21,185 nucleotides of DNA from a virus, in IMG/VR virus record IMGVR_UViG_3300049460_000217, positions 1 through 21,185 of that record. One strand, given 5' to 3'. The notes below the pieces were generated by a model. It was not told where the DNA came from, ran no database searches, and was given only the letters and a program-made list of their open reading frames with translations. The position numbers were made by a program, and so were the translations under genes. Below, piece by piece: positions 4,887 to 21,013 of the stretch (position 1 is its first letter; every line of letters starts with the position of its first letter).

Positions 4887-5752
4887 ACTCCCCACGCGCG
4901 GCGCGCATGTTCGATTACCGGGTTTTCGGCGGGCGCGACCGTGCTGTCGTCATCGGGCAGATTTTCGAGCGGCACGAGCGCACCGGTGCTGAACGAGCGG
5001 GCACGCGCGCGGAAATCGGCCGTTGCGCGCGAACTGATCGACAACGGCGCGACGTGGCCGCCCGTACTGTCGAGCAGCACCGCGCCGTTTTTACCCGTCG
5101 CGCGCGAGGCGATGGACAGCAATTCCTCGTTTTCCTCTTTGAGGCGTTCAATCGTCTGCACTGCCAGCAGGTGATCCGCCTGCATCGAATCGAACAGGTT
5201 GCGCATCATGGCGTTTGACATATGCCATTCCTGCATGACGGCATCGAACAGCGTGCTGTCGTCGGCGAGCGTGCTGTCGAACATGAAACCGCGATTGGTC
5301 GAGTAGTTCGGCTCGAACACGTAATCGAACCCGGCAAAGATCGTCGGGAACGACGGCCGGATATTCGGCGCGGCCTCAATCGCCGACGAGAACCCGCCTT
5401 GCTTCGAGTGAAAAAGCCGCTCTGCAATCGAGCCCGCGTCCGTGTCGAGAAACTCAGCCTCGTGCGTGATGTTGCCCTCATCGTCGGCTGCTAGGTACGT
5501 CGTCACAAGCGCGGGCTCGATGTTGACTACCTTACCGTCGAACACAAGCGACTCAGGCGGGTTGAGCCCGAACCGGGCACGAATCCAGTGCCCGTAAAAG
5601 CCGGTGAGGTCGCGGTTGCGCACGCGCTCTTGCACGGCGTTACTGTTCACGAGCGCGGCGAGCGCGCCGAGGTTGAAATTGCGGTCCTTGCCGACGAACT
5701 GGCGGCCCCGCTCGTGCACGTTGTACGTGATCTTTCCGGTTTTGCTTCCCAT
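4883..5752 (-). CDS. Probable prohead protease / head maturation protein
   Basis: A 289-residue protein. Residues ~35-125 have the layout of phage prohead proteases: a GFYGHW block with H55, then VNIEPALVTTYLAADDEGNI leading into EAEFLDTDAGSIAERL, and finally GGFSSAIE with S122/S123. In gp21- and HK97-type maturation proteases a His after a Gly-Tyr/Leu-Gly block and a Ser in a G-[FI]-S-S/R block form the catalytic centre, with an acidic residue (here perhaps E98 or E100) between. Residues ~165-215 (ADHLLAVQTIERLKEENEEL) form a likely coiled coil, as in scaffold-protease fusions. A good GAGGGG Shine-Dalgarno precedes ATG 5752. The location amid baseplate genes is unusual but capsid genes may lie to the left of the window. 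Assignment is by motif reading only. Confidence 0.55.
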   Translation of the reverse strand: MGSKTGKITYNVHERGRQFVGKDRNFNLGALAALVNSNAVQERVRNRDLTGFYGHWIRARFGLNPPESLVFDGKVVNIEPALVTTYLAADDEGNITHEAEFLDTDAGSIAERLFHSKQGGFSSAIEAAPNIRPSFPTIFAGFDYVFEPNYSTNRGFMFDSTLADDSTLFDAVMQEWHMSNAMMRNLFDSMQADHLLAVQTIERLKEENEELLSIASRATGKNGAVLLDSTGGHVAPLSISSRATADFRARARSFSTGALVPLENLPDDDSTVAPAENPVIEHARRAWGV

Positions 5753-5763
5753 ATTCCCCTCGT

Positions 5764-7074
5764 TTAACTCAGTGTGCCGTTTGCGAGCACCGGCATCACG
5801 CCCGATGCACCGTTTGACATTGCAAGGCCGCCCGTTACGCCGATGCCCTCGAACACGGTCGACAGTTGAAGTTCGATCATGAGGCGCGCGGCCAGCACCG
5901 ACCGGAACGCCTTGGCGACTTCGAGCAGGCCGAGGCCGTTGTCCGTCGTGACAGGCAGCGTCACGCGCACGCGGCTCGTGCGAAAGTGCGTGATGGGCGT
6001 CGCTGGTGACACGCCATCGGAGAACGTCGCAATGCCGTTCGCGTCAACCGTGTAGTCTGTGACCGTCTTTGTCGCGCCGACGGGCGTCTGAATCAGCCCT
6101 GTCAGTACGCCGACCTCAAGCTGCGCGCCCCACATATAGAACGCATCGCCTGCCGCGCCGGTGTCCGACGTCGGATCGACGGTGAATTTCGCGCCGCCGA
6201 CGGCTGTTGCCGGAAGTGCTGCCGTGATCGAAACGCGGTGCCAGGCGACGGTGTCGTCTAGCGTGATGTTCTGAGTGGCGTATTGCGTGTCCGCGCTATC
6301 GCGCAGGCGAAGCGTGTAATTGCCCGGCATGCCTGCGCCGAGCAGATAAACCGACCCGGTAAATGTCTTGCTCGCCGCTGCAATGGCCGTTTCCGTCTGC
6401 GCGGCCCAGTCGTTGCCCGCCGCCGTGCGCGTGACCTTCGCACCCGTATTCGTGCCGTCCGGTGCGATGACTGAGTTTGACGTGACCGTGGCATTGGACA
6501 GGGTCCAGTTCGCGCCCGCACTCGCCAGATTCGAGTTCTGAATCAGGTTCGTGCGCGCGACCGGATAGAGCTTCTGCTCCCCCTGCCAGTCGGTGCGGTA
6601 GATCGTCGGCAGGCCGTCCATGCTGTCCGGGTCATAGACCGCCTGCACGTTCGTGCCAATGTCGATGATCGTGCGCGGCGTGACGTGATCCGGGTATTCA
6701 TTGGCCGTCGCAATTGGGTGCCAAAGCGGCTCGACCTTCCACACATTCGGCCAGGTGGCCTGAAGGTATTGCTTCAGAAATAGCATGCCCCGACGCGGGT
6801 TGCGCGCAAGGGCGGCCTTCAGCAGAAACGCGGTTCGCGTGTCGTCGCGGCGGATGATCGCGAGGCCGTTGAGCTTGAGCACGCGCTCCATCAATTCGGC
6901 ATCGCCGAGGTGCGGCATGCCGGTGAAATTCAACTGGCGTTCGCGGTCGCGGATCATGGCGTTGAAAACGGACGTGAAAACCGCTTTCAGTTCCGTTTCC
7001 AGTTCGTCATATTCCGCGCTGTTCGCGAGCGGTTGTAGCGCGGGCGCGTCGATAGGCAGCAGGTCCGTCGTCAC
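5764..7074 (-). CDS. Baseplate protein with inserted carbohydrate-binding-like module
   Basis: A 436-residue protein starting at GTG 7074, just after the baseplate J stop. Residues 20-170 (with RRDDTRTAFLLKAALARNPR and LFLKQYLQATWPNVWKVEPL) look like a gpI-type baseplate wedge. Residues 173-337 begin RTNLIQNSNL and end QTPVGATKTV, with APDGTNTGAKVTRT and FYMWGAQLEVG inside. That is the signature of the jelly-roll carbohydrate-binding-like modules common in phage fibres of Burkholderiales and pseudomonads. The C-terminal 100 residues (HFRTSRVRVTLPVT onwards) return to baseplate-like sequence. The module therefore appears inserted into a baseplate core and could add host-glycan binding near the tail tip. 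Confidence 0.7.
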   Translation of the reverse strand: MTTDLLPIDAPALQPLANSAEYDELETELKAVFTSVFNAMIRDRERQLNFTGMPHLGDAELMERVLKLNGLAIIRRDDTRTAFLLKAALARNPRRGMLFLKQYLQATWPNVWKVEPLWHPIATANEYPDHVTPRTIIDIGTNVQAVYDPDSMDGLPTIYRTDWQGEQKLYPVARTNLIQNSNLASAGANWTLSNATVTSNSVIAPDGTNTGAKVTRTAAGNDWAAQTETAIAAASKTFTGSVYLLGAGMPGNYTLRLRDSADTQYATQNITLDDTVAWHRVSITAALPATAVGGAKFTVDPTSDTGAAGDAFYMWGAQLEVGVLTGLIQTPVGATKTVTDYTVDANGIATFSDGVSPATPITHFRTSRVRVTLPVTTDNGLGLLEVAKAFRSVLAARLMIELQLSTVFEGIGVTGGLAMSNGASGVMPVLANGTLS

Positions 7075-10969: not shown

Positions 10970-11322
10970 ATTTCGACCTCAGAAAGCCGTGCGCCCAGTG
11001 TCCGTTTCGTACCGACGTCGAGCCGTACCTGCGCACCGAACGCGTCGAAGAACTGTGCGATGCGATCACGCACAACGACAAGACGTTTCAGTGTCACAAG
11101 ACGCTCAAGCACGACGACGACGGCCGCGCGATCCCGACGGACAAGGATCAGCACTGCGCGGGCGCTCTCATCATGCTCGAACATATGCAGCGACCGAACC
11201 AGTTGATGCGCATTGCGTACCGGCTTGGCTATTACGACAAACACAAGCTGGACATGAGCGCGCCGGTGTACATGCAGGCCCGCGACATGATCGACGCTTA
11301 CGCGAAGCACAACGGGGATTAA
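10966..11322 (+). CDS. DUF6283-like four-Cys protein, 118 aa
   Basis: KPCAQCPFRTD near the N-terminus (C9, C12), a downstream FQCHKT (C43, H44) and QHCAGALIM (C64) followed by a helical C-terminus fit, by eye, the DUF6283 family (C-x2-C-P-F-R ... F-x-C-H-x-T ... C-A-G). Four conserved Cys and a His suggest a bound zinc or iron-sulphur cluster; the biochemical role is unknown. ATG 10966 overlaps the previous TGA; ATG 10960 adds two residues and has poorer Shine-Dalgarno spacing. It is directly followed by the PP-loop enzyme, so the two could act together. Confidence 0.7.
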   Translation: MNFDLRKPCAQCPFRTDVEPYLRTERVEELCDAITHNDKTFQCHKTLKHDDDGRAIPTDKDQHCAGALIMLEHMQRPNQLMRIAYRLGYYDKHKLDMSAPVYMQARDMIDAYAKHNGD

Positions 11323-11327
11323 AGCAT

Positions 11328-12083
11328 ATGCAACGCACGCAACTTTGGGCCTCTGGCGGCGGCGTCCAGTCAGCCGCCATCGCAGCCCTAATAGTTCAGG
11401 GAAAGATCAGGCCCGATCTGGCCGTAATCGTAGACACAGAGCGTGAGCAGTCTACGACGTGGACCTACATGAATGAGGTCATTTCGCCCGCGCTGGCTTC
11501 CGTCGGCGTGACGCTGCATCGCGTCAGAAAAAGCGAGTTCGAAAAGAAAGACCTTTACGCGGGTGCGCAGGATGACACGCTGCTTATCCCGGCCTTCACG
11601 ACCCAAAGTGGAGATATCGGAAAGCTCTCGAATTACTGCTCATCCTATTGGAAGCGCGAGGTCGTTAAACGGTGGGCAAACGCTCACGGTGTCACGGCGG
11701 TTGATATGTGGCTTGGTATCAGCGTCGATGAAATGAATCGCGTGCAGAAGGGCACCCGCGCCAAGTGGCAAACCCGCTACCCGCTGATCGAGCAGCGTAT
11801 GAATCGCGGCGACTGCATCGCGCTCGTACAGCGCATGGGCTGGCCGACACCGCCGCGTAGCTCTTGCATCATGTGCCCGAACCATACGGCCCACGAGTGG
11901 CGTGACATTCGCGACAACAAGCCTGAGGACTGGCAAGCCGCTATCAGGTTCGATCACGAGATTCGGAAGCGCGATCCGCATGTCTACGTGCACCACGATT
12001 GTGTACCGCTGGAGCACGCGGACCTTGATGAGCAAAACGGCGTCCTTTTCGGCCACTGCGATAGCGGCCATTGCTTTACCTGA
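11328..12083 (+). CDS. PAPS-reductase-like PP-loop ATP pyrophosphatase
   Basis: A 251-residue protein starting at ATG 11328 with GGGGA 9 bases upstream; the open frame from 10791 is rejected because it overlaps two genes. S9-G-G-G-V-Q-S15 is the PP-loop of the adenine-nucleotide alpha-hydrolase superfamily. LGISVDEMNR (130-138) and a YPLIEQ ... NRGDCIALVQRMGW block, followed by SSCIMCP (C180, C183) and CDSGHC near the end (C244, C249), match the phage PAPS-reductase-like family. Members activate a substrate with ATP, often for sulphur or base chemistry; the Cys set may hold an Fe-S cluster or zinc. Classical assimilatory sulphate reduction is unlikely for a phage. Nucleotide or tRNA modification, or sulphur-based DNA chemistry, are alternatives that the sequence cannot separate. 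Confidence 0.8.
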   Translation: MQRTQLWASGGGVQSAAIAALIVQGKIRPDLAVIVDTEREQSTTWTYMNEVISPALASVGVTLHRVRKSEFEKKDLYAGAQDDTLLIPAFTTQSGDIGKLSNYCSSYWKREVVKRWANAHGVTAVDMWLGISVDEMNRVQKGTRAKWQTRYPLIEQRMNRGDCIALVQRMGWPTPPRSSCIMCPNHTAHEWRDIRDNKPEDWQAAIRFDHEIRKRDPHVYVHHDCVPLEHADLDEQNGVLFGHCDSGHCFT

Positions 12084-12113: not shown

Positions 12114-13064
12114 ATGACTCAACTTCGCATCAAGCGCGTCCACCCGGACGCCCAACTCCCCCAGTTCGCCACGGCAGGCGCGGCCTGCATCGACCTGCAC
12201 GCCATTGAAGCGCACGCGTTCAAGCCGCACCCGGTAGACCGTCACGCGTGCATTTTCCGCACCGGCCTCGCGGTCGAAATCCCGCCCGGCTTCGTTCTGA
12301 AAATCTACTCGCGCAGCGGGCAGGGCTTTAAGGACGCGGTACGCCTCTCGAACTGTGTCGGCGTGATCGATTCCGACTATCGCGGCGAAATCATGGTGTC
12401 GCTGCGCGCCGACGGCGACGACGGCAAGGCAATCAACAAGGTCCGTACTGGTGACCGTATCGCTCAGGCGATGTTGGAAATCGCGCCGCGCTTCGAGATT
12501 ATCGAGGTCGCTGAACTGTCGGAGACGGCACGCGGCGCGGGCGGTTTTGGCTCGACGGGCACCGGCGCAATTCCCGCCGTCGACGTGCTCGCCGGTGATG
12601 ACTGCGCGGACCTGCTGCGTGGCACGCCCTACGAGGCAGGCATGGAAGCGATGGCACTCGCACGGAAGTGGGAAGAAAAGGGTGTGATTGTCACTATCTC
12701 GCGCAAGTCGAAACAGCCGCCCGTAATGGGTGAGCACTACCCGGTCACGAACGCATGGCCGAAACTCGTGAGAAAGGATGATGTAGCGGTTCCGGCAGAA
12801 ACGGCGGTGCTCGACATGGTTCAGTACGAGCGCGACGACGAGAGCATTCAATGCGCGCTGCTGCTCACCGACCTCAAAGAGGTGCCGCTCGACGTCATCG
12901 CCGGTTGGACGCTTGAGCAGTGCATTCAGGTGCACGACTGGGCGCTTGCCGTGCACATGAACGCATCCGATAACGATGATGTGGTAGTGCCGCCGCGCCC
13001 GGCAGTGCTCGATGCCTACGAAATGACGGCAGAAGAACGCCGCGATTCTTACCGGATCGTCTGA
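12114..13064 (+). CDS. dut: dUTPase with C-terminal extension
   Basis: A 316-residue protein. Residues 1-150 are a trimeric dUTPase (dUTP to dUMP + PPi) with all five motifs: AACIDLHA (23-30), YSRSGQGF (65-72), GVIDSDYRGEI (83-93, catalytic Asp in the family), GDRIAQAML (113-121) and RGAGGFGSTG (140-149). The residue before RSG is Ser rather than the usual Pro. The enzyme keeps uracil out of phage DNA and supplies dUMP. Normal dUTPases end soon after motif 5; here ~165 more residues follow, with YEAGMEAMALARKWEEKG (173-190), then WTLEQCIQVHDWALAVHMNA (265-284) and SDNDDVVVPPRPAVL. The last part resembles stand-alone phage hypothetical proteins, so this looks like a fusion. No clear Shine-Dalgarno precedes ATG 12114. 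Confidence 0.95.
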   Translation: MTQLRIKRVHPDAQLPQFATAGAACIDLHAIEAHAFKPHPVDRHACIFRTGLAVEIPPGFVLKIYSRSGQGFKDAVRLSNCVGVIDSDYRGEIMVSLRADGDDGKAINKVRTGDRIAQAMLEIAPRFEIIEVAELSETARGAGGFGSTGTGAIPAVDVLAGDDCADLLRGTPYEAGMEAMALARKWEEKGVIVTISRKSKQPPVMGEHYPVTNAWPKLVRKDDVAVPAETAVLDMVQYERDDESIQCALLLTDLKEVPLDVIAGWTLEQCIQVHDWALAVHMNASDNDDVVVPPRPAVLDAYEMTAEERRDSYRIV

Positions 13065-13065
13065 C

Positions 13066-13644
13066 ATGATCGCGCTGATAAAGAAGCCGCTGCGCGCGTA
13101 CACCGTCCACGATGGCGAGGACGGGTACACCGTCGTTTTCGGGCGCACCAACGGGGTGGCGCGCGCGCAAGGCGCGAACGAACTCAATTGCGGGTTTGAG
13201 GACGTCGCATATTGCAGGCGTGCACCGGAGTTCGACCAGTACGCGCCCGGCCCAGTACCGCCAGAAGCCTGCATCGAGCAGGGCAATTGGTGGTTTGAGT
13301 GCATGGAGTGCACCGAACACGTCAATGACGAGACGCCCGATCCCGTCTACCTTGGACAGTTCGTGTTCTGCTCGAAAGGGTGTCACGCCGTGCACGAGCG
13401 AGACAGGCGCGCGGAGGTCGATTTCGAAGACATGGCCTGCGAGCTTCTGGAGGCCCGCTATCCAGGCGCAGTGTTGCGGCACGTCCATCGCATCAGGCGC
13501 GATCACCTCGTGCCTATCGAGGTTCATTTCACGTTTCCGGGCGGTCAATACTGGGTGCACTGGGTGAGCGGCGAATCGACCGCTTCCGCGCATCCCGACG
13601 ACGTCGACGCCTTTGTTTCCCTCTACCGTAAAAGCAAAAAATGA
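13066..13644 (+). CDS. Zinc-ribbon phage protein, 192 aa
   Basis: ATG 13066 follows the dUTPase stop by one base. C79-x2-C82 (FECMEC) and C102-x3-C106 (FCSKGC) define a probable treble-clef or zinc-ribbon module. The N-terminal ~60 residues (RAYTVHDGEDGYTVVFGRTN) form a beta-rich domain seen in other phage hypotheticals. The C-terminus (residues ~135-185; EVHFTFPGGQYWVHWVSGE) is also beta-rich. There is no catalytic motif. Its stop overlaps the start of the macrodomain gene (ATGA), implying coupled expression. Confidence 0.7.
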   Translation: MIALIKKPLRAYTVHDGEDGYTVVFGRTNGVARAQGANELNCGFEDVAYCRRAPEFDQYAPGPVPPEACIEQGNWWFECMECTEHVNDETPDPVYLGQFVFCSKGCHAVHERDRRAEVDFEDMACELLEARYPGAVLRHVHRIRRDHLVPIEVHFTFPGGQYWVHWVSGESTASAHPDDVDAFVSLYRKSKK

Positions 13645-14954
13645 AAATCAAATTCTGCGATACCAATTCCGACGTTGCGAACGCACTGCACACCGTTTTC
13701 GCGGGCGTCGCTGACGTGACCGTGATGAACGGCAACATTCTGACGGTGACGGGAGACGCCATCGTGAGCCCGGCCAACAGCTACGGCTATATGGACGGCG
13801 GCATCGACCTCGCCTATGTCCGGCATTTCGGCCTGGAGATTCAGCGGCGCGTGCAATCGGCCATCGGCACGTACTACGATGATGGTGTGCCCGTTGGCGA
13901 GGCCGTCACGGTCAAGACGGGACACGCCAAGGTGCCGCTGCTGATTTCCGCGCCGACCATGCGCCTGCCCGGCGACGTGCGCGGCACCGATAACGCCTAT
14001 CTGGCGATGCGCGCCGCCCTCAGGCAGGCGCGGCAGCACAACGTCCAGACGCTGCTGTGTCCGGGCCTATGCACGCTTACCGGCCGTATGGACCCGACGG
14101 AAGCCGCCGCGCAGATGCACCGCGCCTACGTCGAGTTCGTGCAGAACGGCCATATCAACATCGAAGCGAAAGACCTCGCCGACTGGCTCACGAGCTTCAT
14201 TCAGAATCACGCGAACCTCACGCAACACCCGGCTGTCATCACCGCAGAGCGCGCGCTCAGTGTCGTGCCGCGCGAAAACCTCGAACACGTCACGTCGATG
14301 ATGCTCGAACAGGTTCGCCGCCGCCTGTGCACATTCGAGCGCGAGCCGGGCGCGCGTGCGCTCGCGCTGATCGCCGACCTGCTGTGCATGGGCTCGATGA
14401 CGCGCACGCCCGACAACGTCGCGCAGGGCGTGCGGATGATGCGCGATAACGCAGAGAGCGTCCGCGCAATCCTGCGTTCGGCCGCCGACCATTTCAGCAT
14501 TGAGCCGGGCGACGAAAGCGAACTGCCGGAAAAAATCCACGTCCTCAAAACGCTGGCGGGCAATGGAGCACTGACGGCAGAGCACGACAAGCTGGAGAAC
14601 GCAGCGCGCGCTATCGCGCCGTACTACGGCGAGACGTGGGAGCACGAGCCCGATGAGGACGGTAAGGGCGTACAGGTCGGCACGCGTCACGAGGACGGCT
14701 CGCTCAACGCGTTCATTCGTGCCTATGTTTCCAACTACTCGATGGACGATGCGGACGATTACGCGCTGGCCGACTATCTCACCCTTGCACGCCCGGCCAA
14801 TATCGCCGCGCTGTTCGACCTGATCCGCGAGCAGATGAAGCTGATCCGATTGCAGGCAAAGGAAGTAGACGACCTGCGCGCCGCCTTTGCGCTGGGCGTC
14901 GGCGAAGAACTCAAGCGCCTTGAAGCGGACGGGGCTTTGATCGTACCGGTCTGA
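13641..14954 (+). CDS. Macrodomain fused to Ead/Ea22-like C-terminus
   Basis: A 437-residue protein. Residues 1-170 look like a macrodomain: GNILTVTGDAIVSPANSYGY (31-50) followed by MDGGIDLAYV carries the D-A-[IL]-V-x-x-A-N and G-G-[IV]-D hallmarks of ADP-ribose binding. LLISAPTMRLPGDVRGTDN (100-118) and CPGLCTLTGRM (140-150) supply later loops. Macrodomains bind ADP-ribose or its derivatives, and some remove ADP-ribose from proteins or nucleic acids. Residues ~200-340 are helical, of no known family. Residues 370-415 (ALADYLTLARPANIAALFDL, then coiled coil) resemble the C-terminus of phage Ead/Ea22-like early proteins. Start ATG 13641 overlaps the upstream TGA. A role against ADP-ribosylation or NAD-derived signals of host defence is attractive but untested. 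Confidence 0.8.
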   Translation: MKIKFCDTNSDVANALHTVFAGVADVTVMNGNILTVTGDAIVSPANSYGYMDGGIDLAYVRHFGLEIQRRVQSAIGTYYDDGVPVGEAVTVKTGHAKVPLLISAPTMRLPGDVRGTDNAYLAMRAALRQARQHNVQTLLCPGLCTLTGRMDPTEAAAQMHRAYVEFVQNGHINIEAKDLADWLTSFIQNHANLTQHPAVITAERALSVVPRENLEHVTSMMLEQVRRRLCTFEREPGARALALIADLLCMGSMTRTPDNVAQGVRMMRDNAESVRAILRSAADHFSIEPGDESELPEKIHVLKTLAGNGALTAEHDKLENAARAIAPYYGETWEHEPDEDGKGVQVGTRHEDGSLNAFIRAYVSNYSMDDADDYALADYLTLARPANIAALFDLIREQMKLIRLQAKEVDDLRAAFALGVGEELKRLEADGALIVPV

Positions 14955-14972: not shown

Positions 14973-14986
14973 ATAGATACGTCTAT
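14973..14986. promoter_or_regulatory. Palindromic operator ATAGATACGTCTAT
   Basis: Second copy of the ATAGAYA palindrome. Including the attached -35 (through 14991) it matches 8883-8901 at 17 of 19 positions, with the -35 hexamer in the identical place. Confidence 0.6.
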
Positions 14987-15013
14987 TGACAGCCTCAATT
15001 GTGACAACATACT
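14986..15013 (+). promoter_or_regulatory. Rightward sigma70 promoter for the 15048-18328 operon
   Basis: A consensus -35 TTGACA (14986-14991), 16-base spacer and -10 CATACT (15008-15013); TACTAT at 15010-15015 with an 18-base spacer is the alternative. Transcription would start near 15020, leaving a leader of about 28 bases before ATG 15048. Confidence 0.65.
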
Positions 15014-15022
15014 ATTGAGGCT
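14991..15022. promoter_or_regulatory. Perfect 9-bp inverted repeat bracketing the promoter
   Basis: AGCCTCAAT (14991-14999) and ATTGAGGCT (15014-15022) are exact reverse complements 14 bases apart. One arm lies just after the -35, the other over the expected transcription start. The half-site centres are 23 bases apart, about two helical turns. It looks like an operator for a dimeric repressor, distinct from the ATAGAYA palindrome beside it. Confidence 0.6.

Positions 15023-19031: not shown

Positions 19032-19035
<4 letters not shown>
18325..19035 (-). CDS. Beta-rich virion protein, 236 aa
   Basis: GTG 19035 overlaps the collagen-like gene's TGA (GTGA), so the longer frame to 19197 is rejected. 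The protein starts [12 protein letters not shown] and is a Ser/Thr/Gly-rich beta protein: [20 protein letters not shown] (residues ~35-55), [10 protein letters not shown], then [13 protein letters not shown] and a C-terminal strand pair. The 'P-x-G-[VI]-x-x-G-[DN]-L-L' and 'G-W' blocks occur in many phage tail and fibre-associated proteins. It probably decorates or ends the fibre encoded just upstream. No enzyme motif is seen. Confidence 0.65.

Positions 19036-21013
<1,978 letters not shown>

Follow-up and report, generated by a model that had tools for sequence, protein, structure and literature searches.

A phage protein that joins a macrodomain to a C-terminal extension with a probable, remote Ea22-like segment

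Macrodomains recognise ADP-ribose, a piece of NAD that serves in the immune signalling of bacteria. According to Iyer and colleagues, macro domains occur in 4.5% of small, 40% of medium and 56% of jumbo phages, as a rule in stand-alone proteins, and the proposal has been made that they act against soluble ADP-ribose derivatives (PMC9503650). A layout of two parts is found in the antitoxin DarG, whose macrodomain is followed by a domain that blocks DarT (PMC11481870). Ea22 of phage lambda is encoded by one of the earliest transcribed genes of that phage, is pro-lysogenic and tetrameric, and combines a conserved N-terminal and coiled-coil core with exchangeable C-terminal domains; its molecular partner is not known (PMC10834534, PMC7093339). 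Here we describe a phage protein in which a macrodomain is followed by a long extension that ends in a segment probably related to Ea22.

The stretch of DNA under study, referred to as the window, comprises the 21,185 nucleotides of IMG/VR record IMGVR_UViG_3300049460_000217 and is probably a fragment. On the minus strand, its left part codes for baseplate, tail fibre and tail fibre assembly proteins. A collagen-like ORF of 554 aa with GDKGxxGDKG repeats (19032-20696, minus strand) probably specifies a tail fibre. The macrodomain gene belongs to a block on the plus strand, together with a DUF6283 gene and the three genes that head the following list.

11301-12083, plus strand: PAPS-reductase-like gene (phrog_424; also the PADLOC SspD model, E 5.6e-10)
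12114-13064, plus strand: dUTPase with a long C-terminal extension (PF00692, E 1.3e-16; phrog_135)
13066-13644, plus strand: phrog_8514 gene (E 4.6e-32), directly upstream of the macrodomain ORF
13641-14954, plus strand: ORF of 437 aa, macrodomain and C-terminal extension with an Ea22-like end
13641-14156, plus strand: macrodomain, residues 1-172 (PF01661, phrog_2613)
14157-14501, plus strand: middle part, residues 173-287, predicted helical
14502-14828, plus strand: residues 288-396, sharing homology with an Ea22-like ORF that stands alone in a Burkholderiaceae prophage (L105:9716-10642)
14727-14876, plus strand: residues ~363-412, probable Ea22/Ead-like core segment (DDADDYALADYLTLARPANIAALFDLIRE...) that passes into a long predicted helix (hhalign)
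14983-15020, plus strand: promoter-like TTGACA...TACTAT flanked by the inverted repeat GCCTCAAT/ATTGAGGC

The ORF extends from an ATG at 13641 to a stop codon that ends at 14954, exactly as initially annotated, and its start overlaps the stop of the phrog_8514 gene by four bases (ATGA). The order of phrog_8514 gene and macrodomain is common to the window and to two related phages, L002 and L003. The promoter-like element occurs once in the window, is kept in both relatives and probably marks the start of the next transcription unit; the inverted repeat around it looks operator-like. The C-terminal extension of the dUTPase spans ~165 residues and is shorter in the L003 version of this protein (L003:6151-6966). 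The PAPS-reductase-like gene was not seen at the corresponding place in L003.

What kind of phage carries this gene? The L002/L005 locus belongs to Paraburkholderia sp. C35, contig NZ_QBUY01000024.1 (~93 kb). The two ends of this contig share an exact overlap of 77 bases, and its genes include a Rep3 initiator, a ParA-type ATPase and one of ParB type; a search of it for a tyrosine integrase found none. On these grounds the contig reads as a circular phage-plasmid. Since G003 carries a ParA gene as well, the window phage is probably of the same kind, a phage-plasmid of soil Paraburkholderia.

The N-terminal part of the protein is a macrodomain with certainty, by sequence statistics as well as by structure. 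PF01661 (Macro) matches residues 42-158 with an E-value of 6.8e-13 (49 bits against a curated cut-off of 22), and phrog_2613 covers residues 1-174 with an E-value of 9.2e-49. The hallmark motifs that the initial annotation had pointed out, D39-A-I-V-S-P-A-N-S and M-D-G-G-I-D56, are present exactly. Structure prediction, named there as a check against known macrodomain structures, returned the macro fold: AlphaFold pLDDT for residues 1-170 ranges from 91 to 98 (~97 for the domain), and the structural neighbours of the model are macrodomains, headed by yeast Ymr087w (1njr; Z 19.7, rmsd 2.3 Å over 166 aligned residues, 30% identity). The same structure ranks first in a sequence-only search of the PDB, so that Ymr087w (1njr, 1txz, 1ty8), titled an ADP-ribose-1''-monophosphatase, is the closest solved structure by sequence and by fold.

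An alignment of 43 macrodomain sequences shows S47, M51, G53, D56, P105, M107, P110 and G148 to be invariant, with D56 present in 43 of 43 and N46 in 42. The pocket signature of the phrog_2613 family, PANSxGxMDGGID and APTMRxP, is present. We take the catalytic residues of Ymr087w to be N80, D90 and H145; N46 and D56 align with the first two, whereas the position of His145 is occupied by Ser103 in the window protein and by Ala in L002, and varies across the family. Because the fold and the pocket residues, including N46 and D56, are conserved, binding of ADP-ribose is very likely and catalysis of some kind is likely. Because His145 is replaced by Ser or Ala, the phosphatase mechanism of Ymr087w may not carry over.

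Could the macrodomain then simply clear ADP-ribose-1''-phosphate, or a related by-product, within a block of nucleotide-metabolism genes, without any role in counter-defence? The yeast phosphatase is the best match in both structure and sequence, and the same block contains the dUTPase and the PAPS-reductase-like gene, all of which would suit a housekeeping enzyme. The absence of a counterpart to His145 argues against it, as does the outcome for RNA repair: the window genes examined include none recognisable as KptA or an RNA ligase. We regard this explanation as unlikely.

Macrodomains of this family are widely distributed in phages. One scan of viral contigs yielded 178 relatives, and nearly all of the ~50 whose ORFs were examined are stand-alone proteins of ~150-240 residues. 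Members of phrog_2613 and proteins annotated as 'Appr-1-p processing', such as gp176 of Sinorhizobium phage phiN3 and a protein of Microcystis phage Mae-JY35, likewise carry the domain at the N-terminus and share PANSxGxMDGGID and APTMRxP with the window protein, at ~30-53% identity for most, but they stop at ~170-200 residues and lack the extension. Proteins of the Salmonella elements Gifsy-1, SEN4 and SEN5 (274 aa) resemble the window protein in that a phrog_2613-family macrodomain is followed by a C-terminal extension; theirs, however, is a cysteine-containing stretch of ~100 aa without kinship to the one described here. In this Salmonella group the macrodomain gene is part of the tail fibre operon, with a side tail fibre gene on one side and a tail fibre assembly gene on the other; in SEN5 and Gifsy-1 (L013/L014) the genes overlap by short stretches. 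The macrodomain part of the window protein is ordinary, and what is unusual is its joining to the extension.

Is the extension a genuine part of the protein? The initial annotation had counted ~270 residues after the macrodomain, and these prove to be real coding sequence. One full relative is known, the L002/L005 protein (435 aa), which is 76% identical overall and 70% identical over the extension (residues ~173-437, ~265 aa). At a synonymous divergence of ~0.6 between the window and L002, the macrodomain has a dN/dS of 0.17 and the extension one of 0.31; by part, residues 169-230 score 0.17 and residues 231-290 score 0.61. Both halves are under purifying selection, and the extension, given its dN/dS of 0.31, is a real, constrained protein part. 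Outside this pair it is rare. Pfam, PHROG and NCBIfam searches of the extension gave chance-level matches only, tblastn against 50,697 phages, run with the extension and with its last part, returned nothing relevant, and one scan of genome contigs plus repeat scans of viral contigs recovered only the two to three loci already known. Relatives of residues 173-287, for which helices are predicted at low confidence, were detected only between the window and L002. AlphaFold run on the extension alone gave a pLDDT of 41.7, and a long C-terminal helix is predicted at low confidence only.

L003, a relative of 93.6 kb with syntenic neighbours, encodes a version of 180 aa in which the macrodomain is followed directly by the last ~10 residues; its downstream promoter region matches that of the window, and the extension module was found nowhere in the whole L003 record. 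Either loss in L003 or gain in the window and L002 would account for the last residues that they share. Since so close a relative lacks the extension, the macrodomain can do without it. These observations also bear on the possibility that the module is a mere passenger, added to a stand-alone macrodomain by illegitimate recombination, with the two parts acting independently and the module dispensable. The short L003 version between matching flanks, the stand-alone state of nearly all surveyed relatives and the faster evolution of the extension would all fit such an accident, whereas it would hardly explain why two phages that have diverged this far at synonymous sites both retain an in-frame module shaped by purifying selection. 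We consider a passenger fusion possible, if doubtful.

The initial annotation had called the end of the extension Ead/Ea22-like. The Pfam family itself offers no support: PF13935 (Ead_Ea22), which matches lambda Ea22 at 1e-28, finds no match in the window, L002 or L003 up to an E-value of 10. Remote homology is nonetheless indicated by two other lines of evidence. When a three-sequence profile of the extension was aligned by hhalign with eight lambdoid Ea22/Ead proteins, residues ~363-412 fell on the Ea22 core over 53 columns (probability 74, E 2.8e-5 for this single comparison); the probability drops to 25 if only the two close sequences are used. A column-shuffle control with another gap setting gave a score of 34 for the real alignment, compared to at most 19.5 in 100 shuffles. 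The second line is a bridging prophage ORF. Searched against 398 genomes of the bacterial family, the extension profile retrieved an ORF of the L100/L105 prophage (E 3.3e-10), which aligns with residues 288-396 at 36% identity over 109 columns (pairwise E 2e-11); this ORF contains DADDERLRAYLAAANPNTVLELFDCVR, and a piece of it matches PF13935 weakly (E 0.084). Too few relatives of it were found for a deeper Ea22 profile. We conclude that residues ~363-412, a short segment, are likely to be remotely homologous to Ea22/Ead, which makes the original label a fair but remote call. The ~50 residues shared with lambda Ea22 and P22 EaD (PF13935, IPR025153) sit where the coiled coil of Ea22 begins. The arrangement differs, however: in Ea22 the core is N-terminal and followed by variable C-termini, whereas in the window protein it lies at the C-terminal end, behind the macrodomain.

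The two-part layout also invites comparison with DarG, and the protein might act as a DarG-like antitoxin mimic whose macrodomain reverses ADP-ribosylation of DNA while its C-terminal part blocks DarT. DarG macrodomains are indeed among the structural matches (Z 16.8), and a DarG profile matches weakly near the start of the macrodomain (PADLOC, E 0.006; NCBIfam, E 0.078, 12 bits against a cut-off of 250). This match is confined to residues ~26-68 and leaves the extension uncovered, so that the protein does not classify as a DarG. The macrodomain resembles Ymr087w more closely than it does that of DarG, the second domain of DarG has no detected similarity to the window extension, and the homology that the extension does show is to Ea22-like proteins. 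All this renders a DarG mimic quite improbable.

How might a macrodomain and an Ea22-like protein have come together? The L105 prophage has a stand-alone macrodomain gene (5527-6045) with a four-base overlap to a small ORF upstream of it (both within 5141-6045), which carries an Ea22-like motif and is not recognised by Pfam; the longer Ea22-like ORF lies ~3.7 kb downstream of the macrodomain gene. Most likely the fusion arose when a gene for a macrodomain became joined to one for an Ea22-like protein; both gene types are neighbours in this related prophage. Their neighbourhood is not general: a search with PF13935 of 49 other macrodomain phage records and one prophage-carrying genome revealed no adjacency of Ea22 and macrodomain genes, the sole match being in G526 (E 5.9e-4, below the cut-off), away from its macrodomain gene. 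We found no other instance of the macrodomain-Ea22 architecture, in agreement with the initial annotation, which knew of no such system, and none of the papers searched pairs 'macro domain' with 'Ea22'.

We propose that the protein serves a temperate phage-plasmid as an accessory factor that processes ADP-ribose and is probably expressed early, that it carries an Ea22-type oligomerising or partner-binding tail, and that it counters host ADP-ribose signals; we put the chances of this proposal at about even. The macrodomain would bind, and probably hydrolyse, a small ADP-ribose derivative or an ADP-ribosyl adduct by chemistry of the MacroD/Ymr087w type. The end of the extension, through its Ea22-type core, would render the protein oligomeric or, in line with the targeting that the initial annotation had suggested, tether it to a partner. 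This is the simplest reading; the aligned segment corresponds to the start of the coiled coil of tetrameric Ea22, and the oligomerisation idea rests on some 50 residues. The most likely benefit would be to rid the host of ADP-ribose-based signals or adducts while the phage infects or becomes established. The use against host defences that had been suggested from the outset is plausible but generic, having already been proposed for phage macro domains (PMC9503650), and among the window proteins that were scanned with PADLOC no ART, TIR, toxin or other ADP-ribosylating or NAD-defence gene was recognised.

A bolder version, which we view as a long shot, would couple the sensing or erasing of ADP-ribose to the decision between lysis and lysogeny: the macrodomain would read or remove an NAD-derived alarm, and the Ea22-like tail would relay this to the pro-lysogenic machinery. 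If true, the phage-plasmid would choose its life style by the NAD-immune state of its host.

What is new here is a variant of architecture within a known macrodomain family. Phage macro domains are widespread and mostly without tested substrates, and Ea22 is without a known molecular partner. Their occurrence as a natural fusion, together with their adjacency in the L105 prophage, is a clue that both may act in one pathway. Thin as this clue is, with one fusion lineage and one neighbourhood, it suggests a testable connection of ADP-ribose metabolism to the early development of phages.
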